A stretch of 39,285 nucleotides of DNA from Candidatus Stygibacter australis (GTDB lineage: Bacteria > Cloacimonadota > Cloacimonadia > Cloacimonadales > TCS61), in assembly GCA_030765845.1 (NCBI GenBank), contig JAVCDJ010000124.1:1-39285 (forward strand), read 5' to 3'. The translations under genes and the position numbers were made by a program. The notes under the pieces are model-generated. The model had not been told where the DNA came from. It ran no database searches and saw nothing but the letters and a program-made list of their open reading frames with translations. Position 1 is the first letter of the stretch. Each line of letters opens with the position of its first letter. Positions 21,103 through 38,862 of the stretch are shown piece by piece.

Positions 21103-21176
21103 TATTCATTTTACCAATTCCATCTTTATCCGCTTTCAAAATTTATCTCTACAGGCCTGATGGAAATCTTCCTCCA

Positions 21177-21228
21177 GAACAACAAAGCACATACTGACAT
21201 TTTAATGTGAGTACGTGCTTTGTTGTTC
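21177..21228. repeat. Inverted-repeat element, copy 2 (GAACAACAAAGCAC family)
   Basis: GAACAACAAAGCAC (21177-21190) pairs perfectly with GTGCTTTGTTGTTC (21215-21228). The loop itself folds (ACTgACAT-TTTA-ATGTgAGT), giving a nearly continuous long hairpin. Copy 1 is at 1404-1457. The two share the left arm, 'ATA(c/g)TGAC(a/g)TTT' in the loop and the flank 'gttcctc'. It could be a small transposable hairpin, a REP-like element or a terminator. Confidence 0.7.
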
Positions 21229-21355
21229 CTCTACAGGGGTGTTATATATCCAATAGAAGGGCGAGAGAGTAGAGTTGAATATCGATTCTCAGCTATTTTG
21301 TTTGTCAATAATTAGCAGATTTGCTTTAATGGTTTTGAATAAATCGGGAGTAAAA

Positions 21356-28066: not shown

Positions 28067-28498
28067 AGATAACAATCACATTCAATTGAAGAAAAACTTT
28101 CAGAAATGACTAAACTAATGTTATCAATCAAAGCCATAACTATCAAAATTTTAAACTCAAGCCACAGGGAACCAACAGGGAGGGTGCAGGGGGGGTCAAC
28201 CTGATACTGTTAGAAAGACATAATTCTTTTATTTATAAAAGTTTAGATGTAATATTGTAAGAAAATTTCCCGGTTTTTTAATTTAAAAGTATTTATGAGA
28301 TTTAAATAGTTTTATTTCAAAACGAACAATAGATTATTTATCAAAGAATATAGCTTTTCATTTAATAAATTCTGGTTGTGCCCCTGCCCGGTCTTAAGTC
28401 CCCGATACATCGGGGCAGGCGTTTCCGGGAATACCGTCCTAACCCAATACCTTTTTTGTGTAGATTTTCAGGCTTTATTACTGGTTATAGTAAAAAAA

Positions 28499-28608
28499 GT
28501 CTTGACTAACAAAAGGACATTTCCTGCTTTAATATTAGAAATATTAAGCAGGAGTCCTATGAAAAGAAGGAGATTCTTAGACCTTGACAGGGAGGGGTTT
28601 TCAATAGG
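28499..28608 (+). promoter_or_regulatory. Conserved structured leader element, copy A
   Basis: This 110-nt block is 95/110 identical, without gaps, to 33764-33873. Both lie 117 +/- 1 nt before the ATG of a C25-like gene. It begins GTCTTGACTAA. A hairpin has an outer stem AGGAC/GTCCT (28514-28518 and 28554-28558) and an inner stem CCTGCTTTAATATT/AATATTAAGCAGG (28523-28536 and 28540-28552, one bulged T). Differences in copy B mostly keep pairing in the outer and lower stem (A-U to G-U, G-C to G-U, C-G to U-G). The 3' arm contains AGGAG, the ribosome-binding site of a 20-codon frame. It may be a cis-regulatory RNA controlling the secreted protein. Confidence 0.65.
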
Positions 28609-28621
28609 TGGTATGCCTTAA
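28559..28621 (+). CDS. Possible 20-residue leader peptide A
   Basis: ATG 28559 follows AGGAG by 5 nt and encodes MKRRRFLDLDREGFSIGGMP. Copy B encodes the same core, MKxRxFLDLxxEGFSIG. The changed codons between copies all alter the amino acid, usually at codon position 1 or 2, so the pair gives no sign of selection on the peptide. The frame may be incidental to an RNA element. Confidence 0.3.
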   Translation: MKRRRFLDLDREGFSIGGMP

Positions 28622-28725
28622 GGCTAATAAGTATTCAACTATCATATCGTTACTAGAACTGGGGAAGTCCCCAAAAATAAATATGCGCACAAGAATGAAA
28701 AAATATTTTTAAGAAGGATGTAAAA

Positions 28726-31700
28726 ATGAAAAAAAAATTGTTTTTAATTTTTTTACTTATGGCATTCACCGTTTTGACAGCAGCGTGGGTAGAAATCCAA
28801 AGTAATCAATCAACAGAGCTTTATACCTGTGACCAGCAAAGTCGTAGTGCGGCGTCAATTGAATTTAATTTAGATGGTTATGAAGTAGAAACTAAAACTT
28901 ATGATGGGATTGATTATACCTATATAACTTATCCAGAATCCAGTGACCTGCTTGAGACGGGATATCCAGATGTTCCTGTATTTACCAGGGCATTGATAAT
29001 CCCAGATCAGGGTACACCGGAGCTGAGAATTGTAAGTTTCGAAAAGACAGTGATCAATGACGTGATAATCTATCCGGAAGAAGAGATGCATCATGATGGC
29101 GAGGGGAATGTAGATAGATTTGCAATCAATGAAGAATTTTATGGAAGCAGGGGAGTATTTCCTGAAACTATTGCCTGGGCAGGTGAGCCGGCAATCATGC
29201 GAGATTATCGTCTTGTACCGATAACCTTCTGTCCTTTCCAGTATAATGCAGGCGACCGCAGTTTAACGATATACAGCAATCTAGTAGTAGAAGTGGAAAC
29301 CAAGGGCAGAGGCGGAATCAATGCCAAGACCAGAAGTGGTAAAATATCACGTAGTTTTGAGGGCATGTATAAAGCAAATACGTTGAATTATGATCAGGTG
29401 GCAATACGTGATGATTATCAGGTGCCAACATTGTTATATATCTGCAATGATAATGATGATGTACTCGAAAATCTTGATTACCTGGTTGAGTGGAGAATTC
29501 AGAAGGGATACCAGGTAACAGTAGCCACTACAACCCAGACCGGAACAACCACGAATTCCATCAAGAATTATATCCAGAATGCTTATGATAACTGGGATAC
29601 CCCGCCAGATTATGTAACAATTATTGGAGATAGCGGCGGTACATTTTCAATCCCAACCTGGTATTCATCAGGTGGTGAAGGAGATCATGCATACAGCCAG
29701 TTAGAAGGAAATGATATATTAGGCGATCTGATATTAGGCAGGATCACATTTAGCACCATTGGAACATTCCAGGTGCAGCTTAATAAAATATTACATTATG
29801 AGCAGGACCCATATATGGGCGATACATCATGGTATAGCCGGGCATTATTGACAGGTGATCCAGCTCATTCGGGATATTCTACCATAACAGCATGTCAGGC
29901 AACTAAGGAATTGATGCTTGATTATCCGGGTAATTTCTGGGGTGATGATAATTTTGTGGAAGTATATGCTCCAAACTTTGCTTCTCAGATGAACAATGCG
30001 ATAAATCTGGGAGTTTCATATTTTGGTTATCGCGGTTATCTCTATATGTCAGGCTGGGATCCTGGCAATACCACTAATGGTTATATGATGCCATTTGCTG
30101 TAATACCGACTTGTGGTTCAAACGATTGGGATAATGGATTAGGCACTGCAGAGCAATTTGCCCAGATGGGAAGTTTAACATTACCTAGTGGAGGAATTGG
30201 AGCAGTTGGAACAGCGACTTGGGGAACTCATACCCCTTTCAACAATGCTTTTGCTTTGGGAACCTGGGGTGGAATCTTCCGTGATGACATCTTCAGCATG
30301 GGTGGAGCAATTTTACAGGGAAAATATTATTTATGGTTAACTTTCCCGCAGAACCCCGGCAATAATGTGGATAAATTCTCAGTCTTGAATACTCTGATGG
30401 GTGAAGCCGCTGTGGACTTGTGGACAGGGGTTCCTCAGACAATTAGTGCTATATATGATGAAGTAATCCCTGAAGGCGCTAATTATTATCAGGTAGCCGT
30501 ATTGGACTCAATTGGTAATCCGGCAGAAGGTGCCTGGGTGACCTTGACATCAGAAGATTTGGAATTTAAAGCAACCGAGTTCTGCAATACCAGTGGAACA
30601 GTGCTGCTTGATTTGGAAGGTGCAGCCAATGGGGATTATACTTTAGTAGTAACCAAGCATGATCATATTCCAATTATTGAAGATGTATCAATTGAGCAAG
30701 TGGATTATTTTGTTGATATCAGTGAAGTAAGTTATGATGATGCAGCCGGAAACGGTAATGGCATGGTAAATCCTGATGAATCGATAGATATCATGCTCAC
30801 TTTGGAAAACACTGGAAATATGGCATTAAGTGGCGTTACAGCCAGTGTGGAATGCAATAATGACCAGATAACCATAATTGGTGATGAAATCAGTTTTGGT
30901 GATATTGCAGCCGGCGGAACAGCCAGTTCTACCACAGGTTTTGAGATAGAGACAGCCGCAACTATTCAAGGTGGCGTGGATGTAAGAATGGATATCACAA
31001 TCACAGATAGTGATGATAATGAATGGGATACCTGGCTGATAGTTCCAATCGAAGCACCCAGTCTTTATGCCAGTGCTTATACAATAGCCGGAAATGGCAT
31101 AATTGATCCAGGTGAGACAGAAGACATCTATTTCACGTTGACCAATAATGGTAATATGACAGCCAGTAATGTAGATGGTCTGCTTAGTTGCAATAATCAA
31201 CGCATTACTATTACGGATGATACTGGCAATTTTGGCAATATATCAGGTGGCGGCAGTGGAAATAATTCTACGAACCGGTTTACGATAACTGCCAGCAATG
31301 CAATTTTGCCAGGGACTTATATTCCATTTATTATTCATCTCACTAATGCCGATGGATATGATGGATTTGTGACCATGAATGTTCCGATTGGTGAAGCAGA
31401 TGAAACTGATCCTTTTGGACCGGATGAATATGGTTACTGGTGTTATGATGATGGCGATGTGGATTATGATAAATGCCCTGATTATGACTGGGTGGAAATA
31501 GATCCTAACTTTGATGGAGATGGAGAAGCTTTTGACTGGGTAAATGATGTTGACACAGGTCATGGTGCTGGCGAGGGAATATATTCTAATCTGGAACTTC
31601 CCGATGATTTCTCATTTACATTTTACGGTGAAGAATATGATGAAATCACGGTTTGTACTAATGGCTGGATTGCTCCCGGCTACCACGAAACCGGAAACTT

Positions 31701-33516
31701 TATGAACTATCAGATACCAGGACCACAGGGACCAAGCCCGATGATCGCTATTTTCTGGGATGATCTGGCAGCTTATGATAATGAATTATTCTGGTATTAT
31801 GATGATGACCTGCATTATCTGGTAATAGAATGGTCTGACATTGTTAATGGAGATACAGGTTCAAGTGATACATTTGAAATTATCCTTTATGATCCAATCT
31901 TTTATCCCACCACTACAGGTGACAGCGAGATAAAATTTCAGTATCTGGAAGTGAATAATGATAATGTTGGACAGTATCCCAGTAATCATGGTCAGTATGC
32001 CACAGTAGGTCTGGAAAATGAAGATTCTATGATTGGCTTGCAATATACTTTTAATAATACTTATCCTGAGGCTTGTAAGACTTTGCAGGATGAGATGGCA
32101 ATCCTTTTTACTCCTCCTCCAATCCCACCAGATGGACCTTTCCTGAGCGTTAATAATTACTATGTATATTCAGGGGATGATGTCTTTATCGAAGCAGGAG
32201 AAACTGCTGTGCTTTCCATGGTACTGGAGAATATGGGTGGAGATTCTGCCAGTAATATTAATGTAGAAATTTCTATAAATGATCCCTATGTGACTGTGAT
32301 AGAAAATAGTGGCAGTTATGGCATGATAGCACCTAATGGTTTTGGAACCCTGGAAGATGAATTTACTTTTGAAGTATCAGCCAGTGTTCCAGATTTCTAT
32401 GTATTCTATTTAGAAGCGATAATAAGCTGTGATGAAGACAGTTGGAACTGGATGCTTCCATTCACAGCGTATCTGCCTAATACCTTTGATGTAGATCAGG
32501 ACAGCATTCATTTTGAGATGATACCGCTATCAACAGACAGTGAAACCTTTACCCTGAGCAATATTGGTGACCTGCCGGTTAATTTTTATGTGCGAACAGA
32601 TGAGACAACACCTATGCAGCGTGATGTAACTGGTTCTGTGATCACCTGTGACACAGATTCCTTTACACCAGGTGAAGAAGTAACCTGGACATTTAACGTA
32701 TATAATGCAGCTTCAGATAATGAATGGGTTTCTGATGTATGGCTGGATTTCCCGCTGGGAGTAACTGTGCTGGATGCCAGTGATGTGGTTGGCGGTTCCG
32801 GTGGTGATATGATCTGGGATAATACTACTGGTGCCGGACAGCGAGTAAACTGGCACGGTTTGACAGGTAATGACTGGGGAGTTCTTCACAATGGTGAAAT
32901 AGGCGTATGGGAAGTAGATGTGCTGCTCAGCACAGAATTTGCCGGTGATATGTCATTTGGCTGGGAAGTTGGCGGAGATGGATATGGAGAAGAGCCTCAT
33001 AACGTAACTGGCGAAATCTATATGCTGTATCCTTTGAGATGGATAAATCTGGATACTTCATCAGGCACATTAGAAGATGGTGATAATCAGGAAATAATCA
33101 TTAATTTTGATACTAATGATGTGGAAATTGGTACTCATTCCTGCGATATCGTGATCACCTGTGATAGCTGGGATACCAAAATAGTGAACGTAGTATTAGA
33201 AGTGGCTGCTGATGAAACTGAAGTGGAAGAACTGCCAGAAGCAGTTACGCTGAATGGCAATTATCCTAATCCCTTCAATCCCGAAACAGAGATCATGTTC
33301 CAATTGCCGGATAATACTGATATCAGCCTTTCAGTTTATAACCTGAAAGGACAGCTTGTGAGAACACTGGTGGACAGTTATCTGCCGGGTGGATCACATT
33401 CAATTATCTGGGATGGAAAGGCTAATAATGGCGAAATGGTGGGTAGTGGAGTTTATTTCTATAAACTGACTGCTGGAGAAACCAGTGAAACCAGAAAAAT
33501 GATCTTACTAAAATAA
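28726..33516 (+). CDS. Secreted gingipain-like (C25) protein with T9SS tail, copy 1
   Basis: A 1,596-residue protein. Signal peptide MKKKLFLIFLLMAFTVLTAA. Propeptide-like region about 20-225 ('GYPDVPVFTRALIIPD'). C25-like peptidase domain about 230-560, with Cys463 in 'IPTCGSNDW' and the closing 'LMGEAAVDLW'. Where gingipains have the catalytic His in 'GHG', this has R436 in 'YFGYRGYLYMSGW'. Then an Ig-like domain (about 565-660), CARDB/COG1470-like repeats ('GNGMVNPDESIDI' near 675, 'GNGIIDPGETEDI' near 790), a beta-sandwich domain about 890-1130, more Ig-like domains, and a FlgD-like C-terminal sorting tail starting 'NGNYPNPFNPETEI' near 1510. It would be exported by Sec and then the type IX system to the surface. 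AAGGAT precedes the ATG. Activity is uncertain because of the His-to-Arg change; H502 in 'THTPFNN' is conserved between copies. Confidence 0.88.
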   Translation: MKKKLFLIFLLMAFTVLTAAWVEIQSNQSTELYTCDQQSRSAASIEFNLDGYEVETKTYDGIDYTYITYPESSDLLETGYPDVPVFTRALIIPDQGTPELRIVSFEKTVINDVIIYPEEEMHHDGEGNVDRFAINEEFYGSRGVFPETIAWAGEPAIMRDYRLVPITFCPFQYNAGDRSLTIYSNLVVEVETKGRGGINAKTRSGKISRSFEGMYKANTLNYDQVAIRDDYQVPTLLYICNDNDDVLENLDYLVEWRIQKGYQVTVATTTQTGTTTNSIKNYIQNAYDNWDTPPDYVTIIGDSGGTFSIPTWYSSGGEGDHAYSQLEGNDILGDLILGRITFSTIGTFQVQLNKILHYEQDPYMGDTSWYSRALLTGDPAHSGYSTITACQATKELMLDYPGNFWGDDNFVEVYAPNFASQMNNAINLGVSYFGYRGYLYMSGWDPGNTTNGYMMPFAVIPTCGSNDWDNGLGTAEQFAQMGSLTLPSGGIGAVGTATWGTHTPFNNAFALGTWGGIFRDDIFSMGGAILQGKYYLWLTFPQNPGNNVDKFSVLNTLMGEAAVDLWTGVPQTISAIYDEVIPEGANYYQVAVLDSIGNPAEGAWVTLTSEDLEFKATEFCNTSGTVLLDLEGAANGDYTLVVTKHDHIPIIEDVSIEQVDYFVDISEVSYDDAAGNGNGMVNPDESIDIMLTLENTGNMALSGVTASVECNNDQITIIGDEISFGDIAAGGTASSTTGFEIETAATIQGGVDVRMDITITDSDDNEWDTWLIVPIEAPSLYASAYTIAGNGIIDPGETEDIYFTLTNNGNMTASNVDGLLSCNNQRITITDDTGNFGNISGGGSGNNSTNRFTITASNAILPGTYIPFIIHLTNADGYDGFVTMNVPIGEADETDPFGPDEYGYWCYDDGDVDYDKCPDYDWVEIDPNFDGDGEAFDWVNDVDTGHGAGEGIYSNLELPDDFSFTFYGEEYDEITVCTNGWIAPGYHETGNFMNYQIPGPQGPSPMIAIFWDDLAAYDNELFWYYDDDLHYLVIEWSDIVNGDTGSSDTFEIILYDPIFYPTTTGDSEIKFQYLEVNNDNVGQYPSNHGQYATVGLENEDSMIGLQYTFNNTYPEACKTLQDEMAILFTPPPIPPDGPFLSVNNYYVYSGDDVFIEAGETAVLSMVLENMGGDSASNINVEISINDPYVTVIENSGSYGMIAPNGFGTLEDEFTFEVSASVPDFYVFYLEAIISCDEDSWNWMLPFTAYLPNTFDVDQDSIHFEMIPLSTDSETFTLSNIGDLPVNFYVRTDETTPMQRDVTGSVITCDTDSFTPGEEVTWTFNVYNAASDNEWVSDVWLDFPLGVTVLDASDVVGGSGGDMIWDNTTGAGQRVNWHGLTGNDWGVLHNGEIGVWEVDVLLSTEFAGDMSFGWEVGGDGYGEEPHNVTGEIYMLYPLRWINLDTSSGTLEDGDNQEIIINFDTNDVEIGTHSCDIVITCDSWDTKIVNVVLEVAADETEVEELPEAVTLNGNYPNPFNPETEIMFQLPDNTDISLSVYNLKGQLVRTLVDSYLPGGSHSIIWDGKANNGEMVGSGVYFYKLTAGETSETRKMILLK

Positions 33517-33535
33517 ACTGAATAACTTTTGATAT

Positions 33536-33569
33536 AAAAATCCCCGTTTTCTTTAACGGGGATTTTTTT
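33536..33569 (+). terminator. Terminator after C25-like copy 1
   Basis: AAAAATCCCCGTT (33536-33548) and AACGGGGATTTTT (33555-33567) form a 13-bp stem with loop TTCTTT and a T7 tail. It is a textbook rho-independent terminator starting 20 nt after the stop codon, so copy 2 needs its own promoter. Confidence 0.92.
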
Positions 33570-33763
33570 GTCATATTTTCATTATATTGTCAGTAGTAAA
33601 CAGCTCCTCTGATGCAAATCTGTATTAGGCATATTATCTGGGAATATTTGTCTGGTTGACAGGATTTATATTTTAAGTTACAGGTGATAAACAATTAAAA
33701 GCATTTATCAGTAATCCTGCCAATAGTAAAACAACCAGAAAGTGGAGTATAAAGATTAAAAAT

Positions 33764-33873
33764 GTCTTGACTAAGAAAGGGACATTTTCTGCCTTAATTA
33801 TAGAAATATATAGTAGGAGTCTTATGAAACAAAGGAAATTCTTAGACCTTTACTGGGAGGGGTTTTCAATAGG
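33764..33873 (+). promoter_or_regulatory. Conserved structured leader element, copy B
   Basis: Homologous to 28499-28608 (86% identical over 110 nt, no gaps). The hairpin is kept by wobble pairs: outer stem GGGAC/GTCTT, lower inner stem TCTGC/GTAGG. The upper inner stem is weaker than in copy A. AGGAG again lies in the 3' arm, 5 nt before an ATG. Conserved TTGACT at the 5' edge could be a -35 box, but no -10 at 16-18 nt spacing is evident. Confidence 0.62.
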
Positions 33874-38844: not shown

Positions 38845-38862
38845 TTGGCACAATTATTGCTT
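38845..38862 (+). promoter_or_regulatory. Sigma-54-type promoter ahead of C25-like copy 3
   Basis: TTGGCACAATTATTGCTT matches the -24/-12 consensus TGGCAC-N5-TTGCW exactly, with correct GG-to-GC spacing. It lies 45 nt before the ATG at 38907. Copies 1 and 2 lack such a site and instead have the leader element. An upstream activator site cannot be recognised. Confidence 0.65.

Follow-up and report, generated by a model that had tools for sequence, protein, structure and literature searches.

A conserved leader block with a short upstream frame precedes orthologous C25-family genes in Candidatus Stygibacter

Two copies of a leader block, constrained at the nucleotide level as judged from rates across species, stand before two tandem C25-family genes in an uncultured lake-dwelling bacterium of the genus Candidatus (Ca.) Stygibacter. 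All three species of the genus carry the block 5' of orthologous C25 genes. We propose, at about even confidence, that it is the promoter and upstream-ORF leader of a small group of C25 orthologues, the regulation being read from its sequence layout. In the proposed mechanism, a CTTGACT box would start transcription a few dozen bases 3', and the mRNA would open with a short frame having its own Shine-Dalgarno and start codon, with the C25 gene following 115-165 nt later. The short frame would most likely act by being translated. Ribosomes would complete it at the C25 start or slightly 5' of it in copy 2, in Ca. Stygibacter frigidus and in two genes of the genus g14, and translation of the short frame would set how well the C25 start is used. 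On the best reading, the leader thus joins a known class, the upstream-ORF leaders, and is not a demonstrated structured RNA.

The leader block and its distribution

The window is the whole stretch analysed, contig C124 (39,285 nucleotides) of a 3.8 Mb Cloacimonadota genome. Two congeners were compared, Candidatus Stygibacter frigidus (MAG 3300035698_198, here G002) and a Cloacimonadota MAG from Tobar (G001). Passages of PMC8542988 describe both Ca. Stygibacter frigidus and Ca. Stygibacter australis from Ace Lake. The C25 genes 1 and 2 are gingipain-like, carry a secretion-type C-terminal domain and lie in tandem, followed by a third C25 gene that runs into the contig end and has no leader block (Table 1). 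The same passages of PMC8542988 list a C25 peptidase among the dockerin-bearing enzymes of a cellulosome-like complex proposed for Ca. Stygibacter, and say nothing on the regulation of these C25 genes. The genus and the protein family are the same as those of the downstream genes here, whereas the peptidase described there bears a dockerin and neither of the two proteins here gave a dockerin match. The C25 arrays of G001:C96 and G000:C171 seem syntenic, with the leader gene first and sigma-54-type genes next, and contigs end at the edges of C25 arrays, as expected of repeats.

Table 1. Coordinates of the features in the window, with the evidence for each
Feature	Position	Strand	Basis or remark
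Leader block, copy 1	28493..28608	+	Pairwise identity with copy 2
Leader block, copy 2	33758..33873	+	Pairwise identity with copy 1 (86%)
CTTGACT, promoter-like -35 box, copy 1	28501..28507	+	Pattern counts against reversed pattern
CTTGACT, promoter-like -35 box, copy 2	33766..33772	+	Pattern counts against reversed pattern
Predicted hairpin 1, copy 1 (AGGAC...GTCCT plus inner stem)	28514..28558	+	-20 kcal/mol, z -6.2; not upheld in copy 2
AGGAG, Shine-Dalgarno of short frame, copy 1	28550..28554	+	4 nt before ATG 28559; (A/G)GGAG in four leaders
AGGAG, Shine-Dalgarno of short frame, copy 2	33815..33819	+	4 nt before ATG 33824
Short upstream ORF, copy 1, 20 codons	28559..28621	+	Closed early by 1-nt insertion relative to Ca. 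S. frigidus
Short upstream ORF, copy 2, 50 codons	33824..33976	+	Ends 13 nt before C25 ATG; chance in shuffles 0.007
GGGAGGGGTTTTCAAT, best conserved stretch within short frame, copy 1	28590..28605	+	Kept in all four leaders
GGGAGGGGTTTTCAAT, copy 2	33855..33870	+	Kept in all four leaders
Gene 1, C25-family protein, 1596 aa	28726..33516	+	Propeptide_C25, Peptidase_C25, FlgD_ig/Por_Secre_tail C-terminus
Gene 2, second C25-family protein, 1591 aa	33990..38765	+	Propeptide_C25, Peptidase_C25, FlgD_ig/Por_Secre_tail C-terminus
TGGCACAATTATTGC, sigma-54-like promoter of third tandem gene	38846..38860	+	Sequence match; sigma-54 DNA-binding domain in genome
Gene 3, start of third tandem C25 gene, cut by contig end	38907..39285	+	

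The initial annotation had described two gapless copies, 86% identical and at an equal distance of 117-118 nt from the start codon. Both points were confirmed: the copies are 86% identical over 116 nt (16 of 113 sites differ), and the distance to the ATG is 117 nt for copy 1 (ATG 28726) and 116 nt for copy 2 (ATG 33990). The block as such is real, but its start had been put at 28499 and lies a few bases earlier, at 28493.

BLAST found no further copy in this genome beyond the two, and the sole strong match among 148 related genomes was an 89% identical copy before the orthologous gene of Ca. S. frigidus. A diverged version precedes the orthologous C25 gene of G001, so that the search of the genome and its relatives with both copies, as the annotation had advised, led to two further leaders. 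A sequence-only model gave the four leaders 84-105 bits and everything else in 59 genomes at most 21 bits; as the model was trained on all four leaders, G001 included, the score of the G001 leader is partly by construction. The tree of C25 domains places G001 first, followed by the gene of copy 1, the third gene, and then the gene of copy 2 together with Ca. S. frigidus, suggesting that the block predates the duplications and that the third gene lost or exchanged it. The block is therefore not merely a recent duplication carried along with its gene, as it occurs in three species and is older in this tree than the duplication giving copies 1 and 2. A phage or mobile origin was also rejected, with no match among phage records.

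Two other elements were seen around the leaders. Copies of a palindromic repeat (GGAACAACAAAGCAC...GTGCTTTGTTGTTCC; about 55-74 nt) are scattered through the genus, for example at 1402-1475 and 21174-21247 of the window and at G002:C225:4437-4484, with one copy just 5' of the Ca. S. frigidus leader. Its matches number 78 here and 46 in Ca. S. frigidus; both strands are included in these counts, so the places are roughly half as many. Odd sequence also lies before copy 1 (28180-28200 and 28385-28425), namely AGGGTGCAGGGGGGGTCAACC and CGGTCTTAAGTCCCCGATACATCGGGGCAGGCG, the latter being a hairpin without a T run.

Promoter-like box and short upstream frame

A CTTGACT box followed after 30-46 nt by AGGAG and a start codon was matched 20 times in four genomes against 3 times for the reversed pattern, making it about 7 times commoner, and the TTGACT version of the pattern gave 157 matches against 32 reversed in ten genomes. 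Among 18 CTTGACT matches examined, 13 open frames of 121 to more than 500 codons. The other five are short: four are C25 leaders, two of them in genus g14, and the fifth is seemingly a start codon shortly ahead of an ordinary gene's ATG. At its start, the block therefore resembles the ordinary promoters and gene starts of the same genomes, with the same boxes and spacing (about 40 nt from CTTGACT to AGGAG), except that the ordinary CTTGACT starts open long genes whereas the leaders open a frame of 20-50 codons. The G001 leader has TTGTCA instead of TTGACT. In the leaders, no clear -10 box was found at the usual spacing of 16-18 nt, and ordinary promoters gave no more than a weak peak, at 16 nt. 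The idea of a -10 box at constant spacing was rejected on these grounds. If CTTGACT is the -35 box, transcription would start near 28535-28545, and the 5' arm of the predicted hairpin 1 (28514-28536) would lie largely outside the RNA.

The Shine-Dalgarno and start codon of the short frame are present in four of the four leaders and in two g14 genes, and in G001 the same layout reads GGGAGTCCG-ATG. They lie about 165 nt 5' of the C25 gene, and the C25 genes have an A-rich start region of their own. Relative to the C25 start, the frame ends at -13 nt in copy 2, -19 nt in Ca. S. frigidus, and -17 and +34 nt in the two g14 genes. The frame is longer than in shuffled sequences in copy 2 (P 0.007) and Ca. 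S. frigidus (P 0.013), with a range of 0.007-0.06 over four frames. However, it stops 104 nt short in copy 1 and 64 nt short in G001, and the putative coupling would not be identical across leaders. The two g14 genes (G015:C18 and G015:C69) share the layout with TTG starts, while their peptides and predicted folds differ; it is the layout only that suggests kinship with the Ca. Stygibacter leaders.

The leader peptides look alike (MKRRRFLDLDREGFSIG.., MKQRKFLDLYWEGFSIG.., MKIRKFLDLYGEGFSIG.., MNSKKCINFDGEGVPII..). A conserved peptide was nevertheless rejected, as the codon differences look neutral: 5 of the 6 between copies 1 and 2 over the first 17 codons change the residue, as do 15 of 18 between Ca. 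S. frigidus and G001. Together with the frameshift in copy 1, these differences indicate a peptide with no detectable purifying selection. This agrees with the initial view that the frame is not constrained as protein, although the differences described there as all amino-acid-changing are mostly, not all, of this kind.

Control might also act on DNA only, through a promoter and operator in which proteins would bind the near-palindrome of copy 1 and the G-rich stretch, the short frame being incidental. We regard this as somewhat unlikely. Upstream CTTGACT boxes are indeed typical of genes in these genomes, hairpin 1 sits where the spacer, the -10 box and the transcription start would fall, and the tandem paralogues swap promoter types, the third gene having a sigma-54-like one. 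However, a pure promoter predicts neither the AGGAG or GGGAG with a start codon kept in four leaders and two g14 genes, nor open frames that are long more often than in shuffles.

Predicted RNA fold

The initial annotation had taken RNA structure as the more likely constrained feature and the element as a possible undescribed cis-regulatory RNA. As a thermosensor, riboswitch or protein-bound leader, such an RNA would hide AGGAG in hairpin 1 and include the G-rich stretch in hairpin 2. Folded over 54 nt, copy 1 gives a hairpin 1 far more stable than its composition would predict, and the versions of Ca. S. frigidus and G001 do slightly better than their shuffles (z -2.0 and -1.8, respectively). 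In addition, none of the four lower-stem differences among the close copies disrupts pairing, which G-U maintains, as had been pointed out. Against this, hairpin 1 of copy 2 reaches -7.2 kcal/mol (z -0.1), and the full 110 nt of copy 2 has z +0.6, with 152 of 200 shuffles folding as well. Copy 1 is thus the one copy that folds clearly better than shuffles.

The covariation test advised in that annotation gave 2 double-change pairs against 1.6 expected from shuffles and a score of 0.17 against 0.20, at low power with four sequences, and the share of paired cells over the four sequences (79.4%) equals that of shuffles. The upper part of hairpin 1 loses pairs in other copies, and a conserved hairpin 2 (28569-28602) was rejected, because in G001 the complementarity between its 5' arm and the G-rich arm is lost. 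Hence further copies do break the upper part of hairpin 1 and hairpin 2. Conserved RNA structure is not supported, four sequences being weak evidence either way. We consider a structured cis-regulatory RNA unlikely, also because transcription would be expected to start only after the 5' arm. Of the suggestion of an undescribed cis-regulatory RNA, the constraint, the leader-like placement and the absence from Rfam hold, while the conserved fold does not. A known RNA family was rejected, since Rfam 15 gave no match at the gathering threshold and otherwise chance-level matches only. Control by CsrA, suggested by the many GGA triplets, was likewise rejected: no PF02599 match was found in four genomes, with three control genomes positive.

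In the predicted fold of copy 1, AGGAG is paired as in the hairpins of RNA thermosensors and translational riboswitches that hide a Shine-Dalgarno. The statement that the ribosome-binding AGGAG lies in the hairpin therefore stands for the prediction, but this AGGAG serves the short frame and not the C25 gene, unlike in those hairpins. The pairing is also not upheld in the other copies, and the 5' arm may be untranscribed. Among precedents, the ilvB-II motif of Corynebacterium comes closest in outline: it was first a candidate structured RNA and was later shown to carry a short frame, and its peptides are enriched in branched-chain amino acids and act by transcription attenuation (PMC10272879). 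Both are conserved stretches before a gene that at first resembled a structured RNA and contain a start codon and a short frame. Unlike in ilvB-II, the leader peptide here has no conserved sequence by the tests made, and no terminator was seen in the leader. Between leader and gene, no intrinsic terminator was found on the + strand by a scan, which also missed the hairpin at 33537-33569, or by eye. More generally, a conserved hairpin over a promoter can be mistaken for a riboswitch-like element.

Nucleotide constraint and putative promoter types of the tandem genes

Rates were compared with those at fourfold sites from the first 360 codons of the C25 genes. Between this genome and Ca. S. frigidus, 13% of block sites differ for copy 1 against 36% of fourfold sites (P 7e-5), and 10% against 35% for copy 2 (P 3e-6), so that across species the block evolves 2.7-3.6 times slower, which argues for constraint. 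Copies 1 and 2 do not differ significantly less in the block (14%) than at fourfold sites (23%; P 0.13), which gene conversion between tandem copies might explain. Just 3' of the block, identity drops to 63% for copy 2, whereas for copy 1 against Ca. S. frigidus it is 83%, like the block itself (P 0.46). As these two contrasts, copy 1 against copy 2 and copy 1 against its downstream stretch, are not significant, it is chiefly the cross-species rates and copy 2 that speak for constraint. Under passive carry-over, the flanks would be alike through recombination between tandem paralogues, and nothing but the start site would have a selected function. This would explain why the copies of one array are as similar as their genes (86% against 86-89%) and why the block is not significantly slower between them. 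We hold it very unlikely, as it is already weakened by the slow rate across species, by the far greater divergence of the stretch adjoining copy 2, and by the recognisable version that persists in G001, where the first 190 residues of the protein share only 67% identity.

The stretch GGGAGGGGTTTTCAAT within the frame, which appears as GGGAAGGGGTTCCAAT in G001, is not explained by the promoter, the Shine-Dalgarno or the start codon. Ribosomes might be slowed at its Shine-Dalgarno-like GGAGG, or the stretch may bind a protein. A more specific form of the upstream-frame leader, which we consider quite unlikely, is that translation of the short frame, free in its peptide sequence and slowed at the Shine-Dalgarno-like G-rich GGGAGGGG, would set the expression of the tandem C25 genes, with the frame and the pausing mattering and not the peptide or the fold.

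Hairpins resembling intrinsic terminators (ATCCCCGTT..AACGGGGATTTTTTT) were seen by eye 3' of each tandem C25 gene (33537-33569 and 38780-38818), and so each gene would probably need its own promoter. The region 5' of the third gene has TGGCACAATTATTGC at -62 and resembles that of sigma-54-type C25 genes (G000:C171 and G002:C281). A sigma-54 factor is encoded in the genome, as indicated by a match to its DNA-binding domain. Sigma-54-like promoters (TGG-N9-TTGC) were also noted about 50-65 nt before several C25 genes of the family (L068, L074, L067, L093 and L094). No paper on riboswitches or sigma-54 promoters in Cloacimonadota was found among the open-access papers searched. If these assignments are true, tandem gingipain-like genes would be driven by different promoter types, either CTTGACT with an upstream frame or a sigma-54-like promoter, and this difference would be a simple means to use paralogues under different conditions.
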